Shown piece after piece: positions 1,376 through 50,777 of a stretch of 64,000 bases of DNA. Each line of letters begins with the position of its first letter. Positions within the stretch are counted from its first letter, which is position 1. The stretch covers positions 24,231,108-24,295,107 of the forward strand of contig OW203763.1 of NCBI GenBank assembly GCA_934045905.1, given 5' to 3'. The DNA is from Leuctra nigra (Eukaryota > Arthropoda > Insecta > Plecoptera > Leuctridae). A program made the translations under genes and the position numbers. The notes beneath the pieces were generated by a model. It made no database searches. It saw only the letters and a program-made list of their open reading frames with translations, and was not told where the DNA came from.

Positions 1376-4300
1376 TACCTTTCCAATCTTCCTTCATACG
1401 ATCGTACATGTGCAATATTCCAAATGAACATTTCATTGTATCCTGATGCATCTCCAGTTTACACGGCCGTTTACAGACTTCGATCTGGAGGTTTAGAAGA
1501 ATTTGTACGCTTTATGCAGTCTAGTGCAGCGTTCGAACCTCCATCATAGTTGCATAGACCATTTGCCTTGACGCTTGCACGCGATTTGTGTTTGTTGCTC
1601 TCGATCCGTAGAAGATGCTTTATGTATCACAATCAAAAGAGACTATAACATTACAATTGAAGTTAAACCTCCGCTCGAATTGCCTCGAAAACATGGATTT
1701 CGTTAATAAAGCATTTGGCACCGCATCAAACTCGAGTCCACCAAGGGTAATTATTTTGATCGATGACTGTGCGCATCGCAATGATATGGGCTCACTTGGC
1801 ATCACATTGGCTTTTAGGAACGGCCAGAAAGAGGATAGACTGTCTTGCACCTAATTTAGTGCAGTTTTTCTCTCCCTCCCAACTCGCTCACTCCCTCTGT
1901 GTGATTGGTATCCAAGATCCACGAACATATTTTTAAGGGAAGATGGAATTGCAGAGCGGTTCAGTTCTCGACAGTCACGAGGTGATTATCGGGATAAGAA
2001 GATTGAGGAATTTATAACCAAGCGGGAAGACACCCCAGAGTTGCCTCTTCGAGGTGGTGTTTTGCAGCGTGAATATAAGGCCAATCTACGACGGAATAAA
2101 AGAAAGTCTTGAAATCGAAGCAAAAAGAGCGAAGAGGAGACGGAATAAGGTGGGACGTACACCGAACGCATAAAAACAGATTACGTTGATTGGTTGATTG
2201 GAGGAGTTCGTCTGAAAAACGTGTTTTTATCTGAACTAACTTCAGTTGCCATGGTTTTAACGAGTACACCGAACACTCGAGTACTTAAAAACCTATCACA
2301 TTGCGCTCGGTTCCGTTTCTTTGTCCTCCTCCATGTGAACCATCGTTAACGAGCAGTAAAACTAGAATTACGTAAACAAGGTTTAGTAGGATTTAGCGTC
2401 AGTGGGATATTTTATTGTCTTCGGTGTGCGTCCTGCCGAAACAGACGATTCTCCACCGTATTTATCCCCGCAAATGAATTTTATTTCGATAAAGAGCGAG
2501 CCAAGCTGAGCGGGTGTGATATTGATTGATTGATGGCCGATTGGTTGGGATTGATAGGTGTAAAAATAAACATTGTTGTACTGTGGGGAGTGGAAGTTAG
2601 TTCAGAACAAGTTCGATTACAATCGATATAATAAGGTAGCAGCCATCGCGATGCCAGAGAGGAAAAGCTCGCCTCTTTCACGAACTCACGACGAAGGAAT
2701 TGACAGCGTGGAAGAATGAGGAAGAGGATTACGTTTGGCTCGTTAACGAGAAATAAGTAATAACTATTCGTTAAAGTTAAATGATCACAAGGTATTTAAG
2801 TGGTGATTTGAGCGAGGAGCCGAGTAACGAAGTCACTCATGTCTCTTTCGTCTAGCGACAAAACTCGAGACGCGGAATCTCATGATAATGACCACCTTCC
2901 GGGCCTCGCGGAAAGTGTATTACTTTTAAACAAGAAAAGTTAAAACAGGGCATTACAAGTAGAAAAGGTACTATAAAGGCCCATCACCTTAATTAGAATT
3001 GCTGTTATTCTAAGTCTTAAAGCTGGCATATTTTGTGCGTATAAAGAGAAAATCTCGTCCGTTCGCTGAGCGAACGCTGCACAGATGAAAGGCTTCACGT
3101 GTAACTTTCGGCACTCGAACAATCGGGTGCCTCCATTATTTGTTTTCAGGGAGTTGTGTTGTTACTCTAACGAAGTAGCATCCAAACTCCAACAGTCTGA
3201 TTTCGAGAGCAAATAGTGGCTGTGTTCCATTACGATGCTCCTCTTCACTCCTAAGAAAAGCTTAATCAAGTTAATCTTTCTTCGAAGACCAGTCAACTGA
3301 CAAACTACGTAACACGCTTGATTACCTCGAATAATGAGACGGTTTTTATCTTTATGGTATAAATAGTCTAATCCATTCTTGTGTATTGGCGTGGATGAGC
3401 CTCCACAGTGAATTACTCAACATCATTACCCCTTTTATATCCTGTTCATATCATTTTCATCTCTCTAATAAAAACCCACGCACTCCGCGTTGTGTATTTA
3501 CGTCAATTAGCCAGTTTTGAGCCTCCTGCCTGAACGAACAGATCGTGGGAAGGGGGGAAACGAGTGTGAAAAAAGTGAGAGGGATGGGTCAGACTTTGTT
3601 CTTATCACGTTCTCCAAAAGTCGGGAAATTGGGTACCGTCTTCAAACCAGAAGGGAGCTAGACAACTCGAGTGGGAGAGAGTGATAAAGAGAAAGCGCAG
3701 CGCGTGGGTATGCGTACGAGTGGAATGGGATAGGGGGGGGGGGGGGGACAGAGACGCGAAAGTTTCTCTTGCTCTCTACTTCGTTCTCCCGGTCTAGTTG
3801 GGTCGATCTTGGTTTTTGTATTGCACAAAGGAGTTCGCATCTTCGTTTATTGAATCAGCACGCAGAGTTGGTCTGACTAGAGGGACTGGTTGTGTGGATG
3901 TGTGTGTGTGAGTGAGAGCGCCGGAGGCTGAGGACGTGATGAGATGGACCAGTCTTGCTCGGCAATCAGCCCGATGACCTCCGTCTCCGTCTCCGCAGGT
4001 CGCACACGCGTCTGCACGACGACAACAACAACTCTTCGCGGATTCTTAGAAACGCAGCGCCACGTGGCTGTTAGAAAACCCATCGTCTGTGCTAGATTGT
4101 AGACAATTACGCGTGCGGTAAGCTAGTCTGAATGGCAAATGTCAAAACCCTTCCGAACACGACTCGTGGCGAATATGAAAAGCCTAGACACACGTGTTCC
4201 TGTCGCCTTTGTCTCGGATAATGATCGCCGGCGTGGAGAGTGGAGCCGAGGAGCCCGGAGAGAATCGCAACTCCCAGCGCCCAGCTCCCAGCTCCCAGCT

Positions 4301-5439: not shown

Positions 5440-5761
5440 CTTCTTGCTTCCCAGGCCTTGCAACTCTTCGGCCTTCTTGCTTCCCAGGCCTTGCAACTCT
5501 TCTTGCTTCCCAGGCCTTGCAACTCTTCGGCCTTCTTGCTTCCCAGGCCTTGCAACTCTTCTTGCTTCTCAGGCCTTGCAACTCTTTTTGCTTCCCAGGC
5601 CTTGCAACTCTTCGGCCTTCTTGCTTCCCAGGCCTTGCAACTCTTCTTGCTTCCCAGGCCTTGCAACTCTTCGGCCTTCTTGCTTCCCAGGCCTTGCAAC
5701 TCTTCTTGCTTCTCAGGCCTTGCAACTCTTTTTGCTTCCCAGGCCTTGCAACTCTTCGGCC
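5440..5761. repeat. 26/33-bp minisatellite
   Basis: The core TTGCTTCCCAGGCCTTGCAA plus CTCTT repeats about 11 times, with or without a 7-base CGGCCTT insertion, giving 26- and 33-bp units. A second-order duplication is visible (a block with the TTCTCAGG variant occurs twice). No unit contains a stop in several frames on both strands, so long artificial open frames run through it. Confidence 0.92.
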
Positions 5762-9235: not shown

Positions 9236-11644
9236 CTAGTGTCTCAATATTGTGTCTCGTGTCTCCCACTATTGTGTCTAGTGTCTCACACTATTGTGTC
9301 TTGTGTTCTAGACACGTCTTGGTGTCTCAATGTTGTTTCTTGTGTCTCACACTATTGTGTCTTATGTTCTAGACACGTCCTGGTGTCTCAATGTTGTGTC
9401 TCGTGTCTCACACTATTGTGTCGTGTGTTCTAGACACGTCCTGGTGTCTCAATGTTGTGTCTCGTGTCTCACACTATTGTGTCTTGTGTTCTAGACACGT
9501 CCTGGTGTCTCAATGTTGTGTCTCGTGTCTCACACTATTGTGTCTTGTGTTCTAGACACGTCCTAGTGTCTTCATGTTGTGTCTTGTGTCTCACACTATT
9601 GTGTCTTGTGTTCTAGACACGTCCTAGTGTCTCAATGTTGTGTCTCGTGTCTCACACTATTGTGTCTTGTGTTCTAGACACGTCCTGGTGTCTCAATGTT
9701 GTGTCTCGTGTCTCACACTATTGTGTCTTGTGTTCTAGACACGTCCTGGTGTCTCAATGTTGTGTCTCGTGTCTCACACTATTGTGTCTTGTGTTCTAGA
9801 CACGTCCTGGTGTCTCAATGTTATGTCTTGTGTCTCACACTATTGTGTCTTGTGTTCTAGACACGTCCTAGTGTCTCAATGTTGTGCCTCGTGTCTCACA
9901 CTATTGTGTCTTGTGTTCTAGACACGTCCTAGTGTCTTCATGTTGTGTCTTGTGTCTCACACTATTGTGTCTTGTGTTCTAGACACGTCCTAGTGTCTTC
10001 ATGTTGTGTCTTGTGTCTCACACTATTGTGTCTTGTGTTCTAGACACGTCCCGGTGTCTCAATGTTGTGTCTTGTGTCTCACACTATTGTGTCTTGTGTT
10101 CTAGACACGTCCTGGTGTCTCAATGTTGTGTCTCGTGTCTCACACTATTGTGTCTTGTGTTCTAGACACGTCCTGGTGTCTTCATGTTGTGACTTGTGTC
10201 TCACACTATTGTGTCTTGTGTTCTAGAGACGTGGTGTCTCAATGTTGTGTCTCGTGTCTCACACTATTGTGTCTTGTGTCTCACACTATTGTGTCTTGTG
10301 TTCTAGACACGTCCTGGTGTCTTCATGTTGTGACTTGTGTCTCACACTATTGTGTCTTGTGTTCTAGAGACGTGGTGTCTCAATGTTGTCTCGTGTCTCA
10401 CACTATTGTGACTTGTGTCTCACACTATTGTGTCTTGTGTTCTAGACACGTCCTAGTGTCTCAATGTTGTGTCTCGTGTCTCACACTATTGTGTCTTGTG
10501 TTCTAGACACGTCCTAGTGTCTTCATGTTGTGTCTTGTGTCTCACACTATTGTGTCTTGTGTTCTAGACACGTCCTAGTGTCTTCATGTTGTGTCTTGTG
10601 TCTCACACTATTGTGTCTTGTGTTCTAGACACGTCCCGGTGTCTCAATGTTGTGTCTTGTGTCTCACACTATTGTGTCTTGTGTTCTAGACACGTCCTGG
10701 TGTCTCAATGTTGTGTCTCGTGTCTCACACTATTGTGTCTTGTGTTCTAGACACGTCCTGGTGTCTTCATGTTGTGACTTGTGTCTCACACTATTGTGTC
10801 TTGTGTTCTAGAGACGTGGTGTCTCAATGTTGTGTCTCGTGTCTCACACTATTGTGTCTTGTGTCTCACACTATTGTGTCTTGTGTTCTAGACACGTCCT
10901 GGTGTCTTCATGTTGTGACTTGTGTCTCACACTATTGTGTCTTGTGTTCTAGAGACGTGGTGTCTCAATGTTGTCTCGTGTCTCACACTATTGTGACTTG
11001 TGTCTCACACTATTGTGTCTTGTGTTCTAGACACGTCCTGGTGTCTCAATGTTGTGTCTTGTGTCTCACACTATTGTGTCTTGTGTTCTAGACACGTCCT
11101 GGTGTCTCAATGTTGTGTCTTGTGTCTCACACTATTGTGTCTTGTGTTCTAGAGACGTGGTTCTCAATGTTGTGTCTCGTGTCTCACACTATTGTGACTT
11201 GTGTCTCACACTATTGTGTCTTGTGTTCTAGACACGTCCTGGTGTCTCAATGTTGTGTCTTGTGTCTCACACTATTGTGTCTTGTGTTCTAGACACGTCC
11301 TGGTGTCTCAATGTTGTGTCTCGTGTCTCACACTATTGTGTCTTGTGTCTCACACTATTGTATGTGTGTTCTAGACACGTCCTGGTGTCTTCATGTTGTG
11401 ACTTGTGAGTTGTGTCTCACACTATTGTGTCTTGTGTCTCACACTATTGTGTCTTGTGTTCTAGAGACGTGGTGTCTCAATGTTGTGTCTCGTGTCTCAC
11501 ACTATTGTGACTTGTGTCTGACACTACTGTGTATTGTGTTCAAGACACGTCCTGGTGTCTCAATGTTGTGTCTCGTGTCTCACACTATTGTGCCTTGTGT
11601 TCTAGACACGTCCTAGTGTCTCAATGTTGTGTCTTGTGTTCTAG
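9236..11644 (+). repeat. 61-bp minisatellite carrying acceptor-like sites
   Basis: About 39 monomer equivalents of a 61-bp unit built from CACACTATTGTGTCTTGTG, TTCTAGACACGTCCTGG and TGTCTCAATGTTGTGTCTCG. Subtypes have CTTCATG in place of CTCAATG, or TTCTAGAGACGTGG, or truncated units. The last unit supplies the 3' splice site of AGBL4 exon A at 11644. About 35 TTCTAG sites occur in all. A longer register of about 585 bp is superimposed: 9918-10500 resembles 10503-11085. Long open frames over the array come from the repeat and are not genes. Confidence 0.95.
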
Positions 11645-11767
11645 ACAGCGACGACAGTGAGAATGAGGGAGGCCTGGGCAATGTGACGCGAGTGGTGATG
11701 CGGCCCCCGGGTCAGAGCGGCAAAGCAAAGCGCGGCCACCTGTGCTTCGACGCTTCTTTCGAGACGG
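11645..11767 (+). CDS. AGBL4: AGBL4 coding exon A (N-terminal, first visible)
   Basis: The frame reading AGC GAC GAC AGT from 11647 encodes SDDSENEGGLGNVTRVVMRP and then PGQSGKAKRGHLCFDASFET. The last base, G at 11767, begins a split glycine codon (phase 1). The 5' donor at 11768 is GTGAGT. The segment GKAKRGHLCFDASFETG matches the opening of the CCP6 N-terminal domain, and the acidic stretch before it fits the weakly conserved N-terminus. The acceptor is TTCTAG, ending at 11644, preceded by a T-rich tract. This acceptor is the last unit of a 61-bp tandem array. An alternative acceptor, GACAG ending at 11648, would trim four bases. No initiator methionine belongs to this exon in frame, so a short upstream start exon is expected but not identified. 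Confidence 0.88.
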
Positions 11768-15816: not shown

Positions 15817-15941
15817 GAAATCTCGGCCGAGTGGACCTCATCTCGGAGTTCGAATATGATCTGTTCATTCGACCAGACACGTGCAACCCGAGATTCCGCC
15901 TCTGGTTCAACTTCGTCGTGGACAACGTGAGAACAGATCAA
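15817..15941 (+). CDS. AGBL4: AGBL4 coding exon B
   Basis: The exon is 125 bp: two bases complete the split glycine of the previous exon, and 41 codons follow. It reads NLGRVDLISEFEYDLFIRP, then DTCNPRFRLWFNFVVDNVRT and DQ. The acceptor is TTTGCAG ending at 15816 and the donor is GTAAGA at 15942, ending in phase 0. The EFEYDLFIRPDTCNPRFR block is the most diagnostic part for CCP6. The family's usual continuation (an RVIFNIVNFSK-like segment) is absent downstream until at least the gap. The exon lies 4.05 kb after exon A and 20.3 kb before the next visible exon. No frameshift or stop is present, so it looks functional. Confidence 0.93.
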
Positions 15942-32694: not shown

Positions 32695-32894
32695 NNNNNN
32701 NNNNNNNNNNNNNNNNNNNNNNNNNNNNNNNNNNNNNNNNNNNNNNNNNNNNNNNNNNNNNNNNNNNNNNNNNNNNNNNNNNNNNNNNNNNNNNNNNNNN
32801 NNNNNNNNNNNNNNNNNNNNNNNNNNNNNNNNNNNNNNNNNNNNNNNNNNNNNNNNNNNNNNNNNNNNNNNNNNNNNNNNNNNNNNNNNNNNNN
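32695..32894. other. Assembly gap (200 N)
   Basis: Exactly 200 N, a size that suggests either a placeholder or an estimated gap. It lies inside the interval where a roughly 30-codon AGBL4 exon is missing. Confidence 1.
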
Positions 32895-35984: not shown

Positions 35985-36046
35985 GAAGGACGGCCGGGAG
36001 AATCGAGACCGAGCTTTACTGCCTGAGCCAACTTGCTCTGGAGGTT
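35985..36046 (-). mobile_element. SINE head fragment next to exon D
   Basis: GGACGGCCGGGAGAATCGAG and TTTACTGCCTGAGCCAACTT match the minus-strand tRNA-like head seen in the 82-bp array (GGGAATTGAACC, TTACTGCCTGAGCCAACTAG). It ends about 12 bases before the first 70-bp acceptor repeat. Confidence 0.65.
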
Positions 36047-36057
36047 TCCATGAATAT

Positions 36058-36337
36058 CTTGTGTTTGTGTTTTCAGGCAACGGATGCCCAACAAACACGT
36101 CTACTACTACAAGTCGCCTGAACATGTCTTGTGTTTGTGTTTTCAGGCAACGGATGCCCAACAAACACGTCTACTACTACAAGTCGCCTGAACATGTCTT
36201 GTGTTTGTGTTTTCAGGCAACGGATGCCCAACAAACACGTCTACTACTACAAGTCGCCTGAACATGTCTTGTGTTTGTGTTTTCAGGCAACGGATGCCTA
36301 ACAAACACGTCTACTACTACAAGTCGCCTGAACATCA
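36058..36337 (+). repeat. 70-bp tandem repeat of splice acceptor plus exon start, 4 copies
   Basis: Four copies with a period of exactly 70 bp. The AG of each copy ends at 36076, 36146, 36216 and 36286. Each unit has a T/G-rich pyrimidine tract (CTTGTGTTTGTGTTTTCAG) followed by the first 51 bases of AGBL4 exon D. Copies 1-3 read CGGATGCCC where copy 4 has CGGATGCCT, a synonymous difference; the units are otherwise identical as far as I can see. Near identity implies recent duplication or gene conversion. Confidence 0.95.
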
Positions 36338-36503
36338 GAACCACTACGTCTTGTCCTTCGCATTCGGCTTCGACAGGGAAGAAGATGTCTACCAGTTCGC
36401 CTTCAGTTATCCGTACTCCTACTCCAGATGCCAGGCCCATCTGGACCTGCTAGAGAGGAGGCAGATCCCGCACTTCCACAGGGAACTACTCACCAATACA
36501 GTG
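36287..36503 (+). CDS. AGBL4: AGBL4 coding exon D (after a missing exon)
   Basis: The exon is 217 bp. The first base completes a codon (phase 2; the family has Trp here, TG|G), followed by 72 codons: QRMPNKHVYYYKSPEHQNHY, VLSFAFGFDREEDVYQFAFS, then YPYSYSRCQAHLDLLERRQI and PHFHRELLTNTV. The HVYYYKSPEH and FDREEDVYQFA blocks match CCP6. The donor is GTAAGA at 36504, phase 0. I chose 36287 as the start because it is the only copy of the fourfold repeated acceptor that leads uninterrupted into the rest of the exon. The three upstream copies, with exon starts at 36077, 36147 and 36217, each run into a TGA in the following repeat. This part of the protein ends the N-terminal beta-rich domain, just before the M14 catalytic domain. 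Confidence 0.92.
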
Positions 36504-37469
36504 GTAAGATAACTCGCATAATTTGAATCACATTTTCAAGTAAGGGCATAGTCCTTGGTAAGTAGTTCTGAGATAAATGATAAAAACTATGTAAAACTTT
36601 CTAGTTAAAATAAAAATGTTAAACAGTATTGATTCTAAATTCTAATACTAAATAATATAAGCTTTTAAACCTGTTTGTTAGATTATTTTTTTTAATCTTA
36701 CAACGCCTCTATTTAAGGGCTTTTTTGCTCTGGACTTATGCCCTTACTTGAATACAAGTTCATTTTCCCAGAACTACATGTACTAAATAATGTTCAAAAT
36801 AATGCTTAATCACATATTTTCGGTCAAATATATTTTATCCCAGAAAAAAACACTCCGTGTAAAAAGGCAGCCAAGTCTCTTTATTTACAAAAAAAAAACA
36901 ATACTGAAAAGGAGTGATATCAATAAAGAAGCCAAGTCAATGACATTTCCAATCATTAATCTTATCTTTGAGATAAAATAATATATATACATCGAGAAAA
37001 TCTTTAAAAAAGGACTTGGCGCATCGTTTTTTAAAGATTTTTTTTTAATTTTATTATTTTTTTTATTATTTTTAGTATTAAGTATATTTATTATTAATTT
37101 CCAACCCATGTAGATTACGGACAGATGCCCTTTCTTCAGAAAATGTGCGTCTATCTTCAATAGTGCGATTATCACATTAAAGTCGATTTCGTAGTTTTGT
37201 GACTTTGAATAACTGATTCAATTAGCGTCTCCACTTGAAACTGATGGTTGGAATCGCTGTTTTTTGTCTATTTGTCTGTATGTCTGTTTCTTTGTTTGTC
37301 TGTTCCTTTCGCATTAGAGGTCAAACGAGGTAACGGATCAAGCCATTTCTTTCATAAAAGATGCATTACTATCCTGTTCGGTTTCCTACTGATTTCTAGC
37401 AATATTGGTCCATAAGTTAAATCGGAAAATTTATTTTTTTAGTTTATCAGATCGTAGCATCGAAATCTT
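36504..37469. other. Intron after exon D
   Basis: AT-rich with T/A runs near 36890-37070. No exon is recognised. Confidence 0.5.
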
Positions 37470-49033: not shown

Positions 49034-50777
49034 GAAGTACGGCCGCGGGAATTGAACTCGGGTCGCCCGAGTGAAAGTCCAGCGCGTTACTGCCTGAGCC
49101 AACTAGCTCCGTCCATCACCGAAGCCACGGGAATTGAACCCGGGTCGCCCAAGTGAAAGTCCAGCGCGTTACTGCCTGAGCCAACGAGCTCCGTCCATCA
49201 CCGAGGCGAGGGGAATTGAACCCGGGTCGCCCGAGTGAAAGTCCAGCGCGTTACTGCCTGAGCCAACTAGCTCCGTCCATCACCGAAGCCACGGGAATTG
49301 AACCCAGGTCGCCCGAGTGAAAGTCCAGCGCGTTACTGCCTGAGCCAACGAGCTCCGTCCATCACCGAGGCGAGGGGGATTGAACCCGGGTCGCCCGAGT
49401 GAAAGTCCTGCGCGTTACTGCCTGAGCCAACTAGCTCCGTCCATCACTGAGGCGAGGGGGATTGAACCCGGTTCGCCCGAGTGAAAGTCCAGCGCGTTAC
49501 TGCCTGAGCCAACTAGCTCCGTCCATCACCGAGGCGAGGGGGATTGAACCCGGGTCGCCCGAGTGAAAGTCCAGCGCGTTACTGCCTGAGCCAACTAGCT
49601 CCGTCCATCACCGAGGCGAGGGGAATTGAACCCGGGTCGCCCGAGTGAAAGTCCAGCGCGTTACTGCCTGAGCCAACTAGCTCCGTCCAGCACCGAGGCC
49701 ACGGGAATTGAACCCGGGTCGCCCGAGTGAAAGTCCAGCGCGTTACTGCCTGAGCCAACTAGCTCCGTCCATCACCGAGGCGACGGGAATTGAACCCGAG
49801 TCGCCCGAGTGAAAGTCTAGCGCGTTACTGCCTGAGCCAACTAGCTCCGTCCATCACCGAGGCGACGGGAATTGAACCCGGGTCGCCCGAGTGAAAGTCC
49901 AGCGCGTTACTGCCTGAGCCAACCAGCTCCGTCCATCACCGAGGCGAGGGGGATTGAACCCGGGTCGCCCGAGTGAGAGTCCAGCGCGTTACTGCCTGAG
50001 CCAACTAGCTCCGTCCATCACCGAGGTGACGGGAATTGAACCCGGGTCGCCCGAGTGAAAGTCCAGCGCGTTACTGCCTAAGCCAACTAGCTCCGTCCAT
50101 CACCGAGGCGAGGGGAATTGAATCCGGGTCGCCCGAGTGAAAGTCCAGCACGTTACTGCCTGAGCCAACTAGCTCCGTCCATCACCGAGGCGACGGGAAT
50201 TGAACCCGGGTCGCCCGAGTGAAAGTCCAGCGCGTTACTGCCTGAGCCAACTAGCTCCGTCCATCACCGAGGCGACGGGAATTGAACCCGAGTCGCCCGA
50301 GTGAAAGTCTAGCGCGTTACTGCCTGAGCCAACTAGTTCCGTCCATCACCGAGGCGACGGGAATTGAACCCGGGTCGCCAGAGTGAAAGTCCAGCGCGTT
50401 ACTGCCTGAGCCAACTAGCTCCGTCCATCACCGAGGCGAGGGGAATTGAACCCGGGTCGCCCGAGTGAAAGTCCAGCGCGTTACTGCCTGAGCCAACTAG
50501 CTCCGTCCATCACCGAGGCGAGGGGAATTGAACCCGGGTCGCCCGAGTGAAAGTCCAGCGCGTTACTGCCTGAGCCAACTATAGCTCCGTCCATCACCGA
50601 GGCGAGGGGAATTAAACCCGGGTCGCCCGAGTGAGAGTCCAGCGCGTTCTGCCTGAGCCAACTAGCTCTGTCCATCACCGAGGCGAGGGGGATTGAACCC
50701 GGGTCGCCCGAGTGAAAGTCCAGCGCGTTACTGCCTGAGCCAACTAGCTCCGTCCATCACCGAGGCGAGGGGAATTC
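49034..50777 (-). repeat. 82-bp tandem array of tRNA-Glu-like SINE heads, about 21 units
   Basis: On the minus strand each unit reads GGAGCTAGTTGGCTCAGGCA, GTAACGCGCTGGACTTTCAC, TCGGGCGACCCGGGTTCAAT, TCCCCTCGCCTCGGTGATGG. It has a TGGCTCAG A-box start and a GGTTCAATTCC B box (one change from consensus). The TTTCACTCGGGCGACCCGGG segment resembles the anticodon-to-variable part of tRNA-Glu (TTC), with a mispaired anticodon stem. The left edge, GTACGGCCGCGGGAATTGAA, looks like the SINE head-body junction. Units are about 95% alike by eye. Confidence 0.9.

Follow-up and report, generated by a model that had tools for sequence, protein, structure and literature searches.

Tandem arrays at exon boundaries of AGBL4 and other carboxypeptidase-type genes in the stonefly Leuctra nigra: candidate 'mirage' minisatellites

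At exon D of the AGBL4 gene of Leuctra nigra, the splice acceptor and the beginning of the exon stand four times in a row and only one of the copies leads into the rest of the exon, which raises the question of how such an array could have arisen and how a gene can live with it. The reading favoured here, at a probability of roughly three in four, is that the array (array D) is a boundary 'mirage' minisatellite, which arose by tandem duplication and is likely tolerated since the acceptor joined to the exon body would mostly be used. The evidence comes from the window (the whole stretch of 64,000 nucleotides that was analysed), from its surroundings and from other carboxypeptidase-type genes of the same genome.

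The gene and the array at exon D

The region considered comprises 264 kb, i.e. the window with 80 kb upstream and 120 kb downstream (coordinates in this joined stretch equal the window position plus 80,000). Exons were mapped with a vertebrate AGBL4, along with Schistocerca and Timema proteins, as queries. Eight AGBL4 exons, all of them open, were placed by homology and lettered here A, B and D to I, including exon A (11645-11767, plus strand, donor GTGAGT), exon B (15817-15941, plus strand, with no array within 300 bp), exon E (147384-147519 in the joined stretch) and exon F (167939-168053 in the joined stretch). With exon C unlocated, the located exons lie 1.3 to 30.9 kb apart; the largest distance is that from D to E, and the 20.3 kb from B to D would include exon C. 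A joined query of seven exons retrieved 452 proteins at E 1e-20 or better; the best among the 120 of these 452 matches listed were a Timema protein (78%, named Peptidase M14 protein) and a Schistocerca protein (75%, named cytosolic carboxypeptidase 6 (AGBL4)), in agreement with the gene identity given in the original prediction.

Exon C, which is expected between B and D and should supply the first two bases of a Trp codon, was not found genome-wide at E values up to 1; it may lie in the run of 200 N at 32695-32894, between exons B and D. The exon following I matches the minus strand at G000:C13:24133409-24133525, about 110 kb upstream of exon A. The lack of the one and the displacement of the other likely mean that a contig was misplaced or inverted in the scaffold, or that the inversion is real.

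Tandem Repeats Finder, applied to the window, delimits an array of period 70 at 36057-36335 (plus strand; 4.0 copies, 99% matches), confirming the four 70-bp copies that had been noticed at exon D. Each unit consists of 20 intron bases with the acceptor AG at their end, the first 49 bases of exon D (in place of the 51 coding bases claimed earlier) and one junction base, and the array is indeed a duplicated splice acceptor plus exon start. The acceptor AG ends at 36076 in copy 1 (36057-36126), 36146 in copy 2 (36127-36196), 36216 in copy 3 (36197-36266) and 36286 in copy 4 (36267-36335), all as claimed, and copy 4 is the only one that continues into the exon. Exon D itself (36287-36503, plus strand) is predicted by homology, comprises 217 bases, is open and is flanked by TTTTCAG (5') and by the donor GTAAGA (3', at 36504); its phase fits homology, as its first base, G, would finish the Trp codon of ...PKW/QRMP... 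(slash at the junction) in the Schistocerca protein. Copies 1 to 3 are identical, and the only change within the unit in copy 4 is a C to T at unit base 33 (window 36299), synonymous for Pro; at unit base 70, exon D continues from copy 4 with C where the other units have G. In a DNA search of the 536-Mb assembly, the 454-bp stretch with array D gave one listed match. Exon D alone found no relevant match in Pfam or PDB searches, and RNA families scored nowhere above the gathering score in the window.

Reading on from each of the three upstream acceptors meets a premature stop, as had been expected. The stop named for them, the TGA within GTCGCCTGA of the following copy, is the one encountered from acceptors 1 and 2 (in both cases after 37 codons), but not from acceptor 3, the frame of which stops first, after 27 codons, at a TAA made in copy 4 by the C-to-T change. 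Similarly, the description of the four sites as nearly equal holds for their context, which is identical from -20 to +49 (unit base 33 of copy 4 aside), but not for their surroundings, as a branch-point-like yTnAy motif is seen upstream of copy 1 only and exon proximity would be expected to favour copy 4. Neighbouring copies enclose a 21-base GT...AG stretch, which is likely too short for an intron.

Some further features of the array and its surroundings deserve mention. RNA structure masking the upstream acceptors was dropped as a candidate, the folding scores being not unusual (z of -0.16 for one unit and 0.67 for the whole array). Near both edges of the duplicated stretch a short similarity is seen (GAATATC at 36052-36058 and GAACATC at 36330-36336), which may be left over from the event that produced the first duplication. 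Just upstream of the array, a 26-base piece at 36013-36038 is 92% identical to a tRNA-Glu-like minisatellite; such units, of 82 bp, form a minisatellite at 49047-50776, with eight ARAGORN calls on the minus strand.

Further arrays in AGBL4 and in other genes

Array D is not alone, for four of the eight located AGBL4 exons (A, D, E and F) bear arrays that extend across the boundary of the exon itself; no array with a period of at least 10 lies within 300 bp of exons B, G, H and I. Array A (9236-11644, plus strand; 61-bp unit) repeats the acceptor predicted for exon A, TTGTGTCTTGTGTTCTAG/ACA (slash at the boundary, up to four mismatches allowed), 36 times; the last copy is the acceptor of the exon itself, and only about three exon bases are copied. 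Array E consists of five extra copies of the 3' part of exon E downstream of the exon, which makes six donors in all, spaced by 143, 141, 113, 113 and 136 bp; the donors of the extra copies read CAAG/GTAAAT in four cases and GTATAT in one, and the copies are 92-95% identical (in pairwise matches that span at least 100 bases and have no large gaps). Array F (G000:C13:24306430-24319071), upstream of exon F, extends over 12.6 kb with a 134-bp unit and includes 93 pattern-matched acceptor copies, with AG in 89 of the 93. At the predicted boundaries, each AGBL4 array has as its productive site the copy that gives the shortest exon (last acceptor or first donor), and reading from the sites that are not exon-proximal leads to a stop throughout, viz. 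from 35/35 acceptors in A, 3/3 in D and 92/92 in F and from 5/5 donors in E.

Two observations on neighbouring sequence may be added. The unit of array F contains 89 bases that are open in one frame and absent from the flanking exon, and no other copy of this part was found within the 264 kb. A 144-bp array at 5440-5761, parts of which read CTTCTTGCTTCCCAGGCC and are acceptor-like, is possibly another boundary array.

Beyond AGBL4, at least twelve arrays at predicted exon boundaries (those of AGBL4 included) were found in the Leuctra nigra genome, nine at acceptors (AGBL4 A, D and F, L002, L026 and L034-L037) and three at donors (AGBL4 E, L030 and L049). A genome search with Peptidase_M14 gave at least 151 matches, and 136 of 138 candidates were scored; on C11, C12, C3 and C10, partial matches stand in rows just upstream of fuller exon matches. 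These rows proved to be acceptor arrays, all four of them autosomal. Acceptors number 14 in L034 (pattern-matched; 113-bp unit, the first exon start having a different intron end), six in L035 (143 bp), three in L036 (156 bp) and 36 in L037 (137-139 bp), the array of L037 lying apparently at a terminal exon. L034 and L035 are paralogous exons whose arrays sit at the same exon boundary and differ in their unit (113 against 143 bp), hinting at repeated birth there. L026, at a lower-ranked M14 match, is a two-copy 94-bp acceptor duplication, and the donor arrays of L030 and L049 have related units of 54-55 bp with partly degenerate donors. L002 (C13:14.37 Mb), a carboxypeptidase-like gene from an M14_N search which we take to be CCP2/3-like, has eight acceptor copies within the locus at a spacing of 88-100 bp; they lie at a predicted exon, an open stretch bounded by an acceptor and a donor and situated some 600 bp upstream of the exon that was matched. 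Upstream acceptors lead to stops in L002 (7/7), L026 (1/1), L034 (13/13), L035 (5/5) and L037 (35/35); in L036, all three acceptors, both upstream ones included, are in frame and open. The 33 top-ranking M14 matches were all read with at least 150 bases of flank, and four of them bear boundary arrays (L034, L035, L030 and L049). A p450 search gave no tandem partial matches among the 100 listed, just 92 of 835 candidates being scored, so that it carries little weight in either direction.

Could the copies be a product of the assembly, multiplied there from a single copy in the animal? The locus is not free of blemishes, with 200-N gaps at window positions 32695-32894 and at C13:24337828-24338027 and with the order of the AGBL4 exons disturbed. 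Nevertheless, the assembly was built, in the accessible text of its report, from one male at 32-fold HiFi with the X at half coverage, and the contig of the window, C13, is the X chromosome (PMC10280035); since a male has a single X, on which the window lies, the copies do not stem from merged alleles. Furthermore, copy 4 differs from copies 1-3, and twelve such arrays are present with different units. HiFi reads are far longer than 280 bp, the length of array D. An artefact of this kind is thus judged extremely unlikely.

Another reading is that the array blocks AGBL4 and that the gene is becoming a pseudogene in this animal. In its favour, the first acceptor downstream of the native intron is unproductive and a male X, as the available part of the assembly report has it, means one copy only (PMC10280035). 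It sits poorly with the eight open exons out of the eight located, and the divergence among the exon E array copies (92-95% identity) suggests a gene that has been living with arrays for a while. Since all eight exons are open and the seven joined ones share 75% identity with the Schistocerca protein and 78% with that of Timema, the located parts of AGBL4 are not decayed despite four arrays; with exon C missing and the exon after I displaced, the integrity of the whole gene is judged from these located exons only. A dying gene is therefore very unlikely here, and open, conserved exons would agree with regular splicing.

Chance placement, decoy acceptors and splice-site choice

In a repeat-rich genome, ordinary minisatellites might land on boundaries by chance, with no tendency to start there. 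Some overlap with exons is to be expected, as 9.3% of the 264 kb is taken up by the 15 merged arrays with a period of at least 30. Four of these 15, however, have an end no more than 100 bp from one of the 16 boundaries of the located exons (at 6, 48, 26 and 25 bp, the next nearest array being 1,328 bp away), against a mean of 0.28 under random placement, and four were reached in 3 of 20,000 trials; without the array and exon D, three of 14 lie that close (against a random mean of 0.22, with three reached in 22 of 20,000 trials). Likewise, four arrays cover a boundary against a random mean of 0.71 (47 of 20,000, and 55 in a repeat), and when the tests are extended to all 45 arrays with a period of at least 10, the corresponding counts are 66 (end near a boundary) and 154 (boundary covered) of 20,000. 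The test is suggestive only, AGBL4 being a gene picked because of its array. Among 30 M14 loci, three of the four arrays whose unit is at least 54 bp long are placed at exon edges (the fourth being L048), which again speaks against chance placement. Such an origin appears unlikely, though it deserves to be kept in view; it shares the tolerance part of the preferred explanation and opposes mainly the reading of boundaries as birthplaces.

According to the original prediction, the arrangement could be either a neutral recent expansion or a length-tunable control, in which the number of decoy acceptors sets the share of early-stop transcripts lost to nonsense-mediated decay (NMD). A control of this kind would suit the stops that follow every upstream or outer site of AGBL4 as counted above, and equally the retention of AG in the upstream acceptor copies (35/35 in A, 3/3 in D and 88/92 in F). 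Stops are, nonetheless, the usual outcome of any unit not divisible by three, and the unit lengths of the arrays vary, being 0, 1 and 2 modulo 3; L036, with its 156-bp unit, keeps the frame and runs into no stop from any of its three acceptors, and L037 lies in an apparent terminal exon, where classical NMD is not expected. Early stops are thus common without being a rule, which argues against selection for NMD. The AG of the 93-copy array shows no special conservation either. Across the 87 units of exactly 134 bp in array F, which diverge from their consensus by 1.0% on average, the A of the acceptor is invariant and the G varies in 4.6%, and 13 of the 134 sites are as variable or more; in L037, one of 70 AG bases differs across 35 copies. 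The copies of array A, being selected by pattern, are left out of this comparison. Nothing points to maintenance or purging of the AG sites in the arrays. Length-tunable control as the reason for the arrays is hence improbable and an NMD dial as their general rule is not supported, though array D alone may have a side effect on the mRNA level. Neutral recent expansion fits best of the two, with the addition that array D belongs to a class present in several genes; as a whole, the interpretation offered by the original prediction is partly supported.

Under the preferred explanation, a boundary minisatellite tolerated by splicing, a splice acceptor would have been duplicated in tandem together with the first bases of its exon, leaving one copy joined to the exon body, and splicing would mostly pick this acceptor, allowing the array to be tolerated. 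The choice could be made by exon definition, in which the two splice sites flanking an exon are recognised as a pair, favouring the copy that is continuous with the exon; pairing across exon D is made plausible by the long stretches on either side (30.9 kb to E and 20.3 kb from B to D). Transcripts spliced at the remaining sites of an array would mostly meet early stops, and the arrays themselves would grow and shrink by ordinary repeat instability. Boundary arrays are accordingly likely to have no selected function, their extra copies being harmless by-products of repeat growth.

Published data bear on the proposed choice in both directions. Where introns are large, the splice sites closest across the exon are preferred, as far as the accessible text of the study goes; the same text describes an overall lean of 3' sites towards the upstream site, which long introns lessen (PMC9225289). 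By analogy, this upstream lean would count against a preference for copy 4 (PMC9225289). The yTnAy motif upstream of copy 1 only would also favour the first, unproductive acceptor and counts against the preferred explanation.

Relation to known systems and significance

Arrays of this class are already known as the 'mirages' of amphioxus (BflGb6, BflGb9 and Adh3), which are described in the available text as minisatellite-like tandem duplications over an exon-intron boundary, affecting acceptors as well as donors, with units of 10-72 bp in Adh3 and 150-160 bp in the globins (PMC3087553). Many of their units carry AG or GT signals, copies at the edges escape homogenisation, and the BflGb6 mirage has six and three units in two haplotypes, as reported in the same accessible part (PMC3087553). 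The Leuctra nigra arrays resemble them in that the units hold an intron end and an exon start, or an exon end and an intron start (PMC3087553, as far as available). At the predicted boundaries, all twelve arrays have units with both sides of the boundary, and one copy only is continuous with the exon body.

The differences are chiefly of scale, with up to 93 copies, 12.6 kb and four arrays in one gene in Leuctra nigra against the six and three units of amphioxus BflGb6 (accessible text of PMC3087553). Length polymorphism and regular splicing belong to the amphioxus reports, the accessible portions of which describe mirages as being without effect on splicing (PMC3087553, PMC3902484), whereas the Leuctra nigra arrays are known from the sequence of one haplotype. 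Splice-site duplications are also described in lancelet PGBD5 and TnC (PMC3902484, available part); the PGBD5 copies are imperfect, and the animal group differs from stoneflies. Intron gain in a potato RdRp (PMC4974935) and in Drosophila (PMC2891723), the latter an insect as well, likewise involved tandem duplication of a stretch with splice signals, but a new intron is what the accessible texts report there, in contrast to the array units of Leuctra nigra, repeated up to 93 times. A literature search, which had most subscription journals outside its reach, found no report of insect mirages; within the literature searched, the insect host, the four arrays in one gene and the number of copies, up to 93, are new as far as could be seen. 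Tandem acceptors of the NAGNAG kind are another case in which several acceptors in a row compete; in the Leuctra nigra arrays, the sites are mainly 61-156 bp apart, the exon start is copied with them and most upstream sites lead to stops.

A more general reading, tentative and somewhat doubtful at present, is that stonefly exon boundaries give birth to minisatellites, at around one exon in ten (a rate taken from one enzyme family) and with up to about 100 copies, that only the shortest-exon site is spliced and that these arrays are independent of the amphioxus mirages. If this birthplace reading were true, the genome would be a place where nature itself tests how splice sites are chosen, and one that drives the formation of new introns. 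The arrays might serve as a standing supply of spare splice sites for new introns or exons and, if lancelets and stoneflies acquired their mirages independently, duplication at boundaries would be a recurrent type of mutation and a credible route to new introns. Further, up to 93 near-identical sites with a single productive one would provide a direct test of pairing across exons versus across introns, and RNA reads from one insect could settle site pairing at many loci. For annotation, exons with boundary arrays call for caution, as they yield ghost exon starts.

Two further repeats were also seen, at the loci L025 and L031. A donor-like site in L025 carries an imperfect repeat of two copies (354-573), and in L031 a 20-bp array (2839-3046, reverse complement) begins shortly after such a site.
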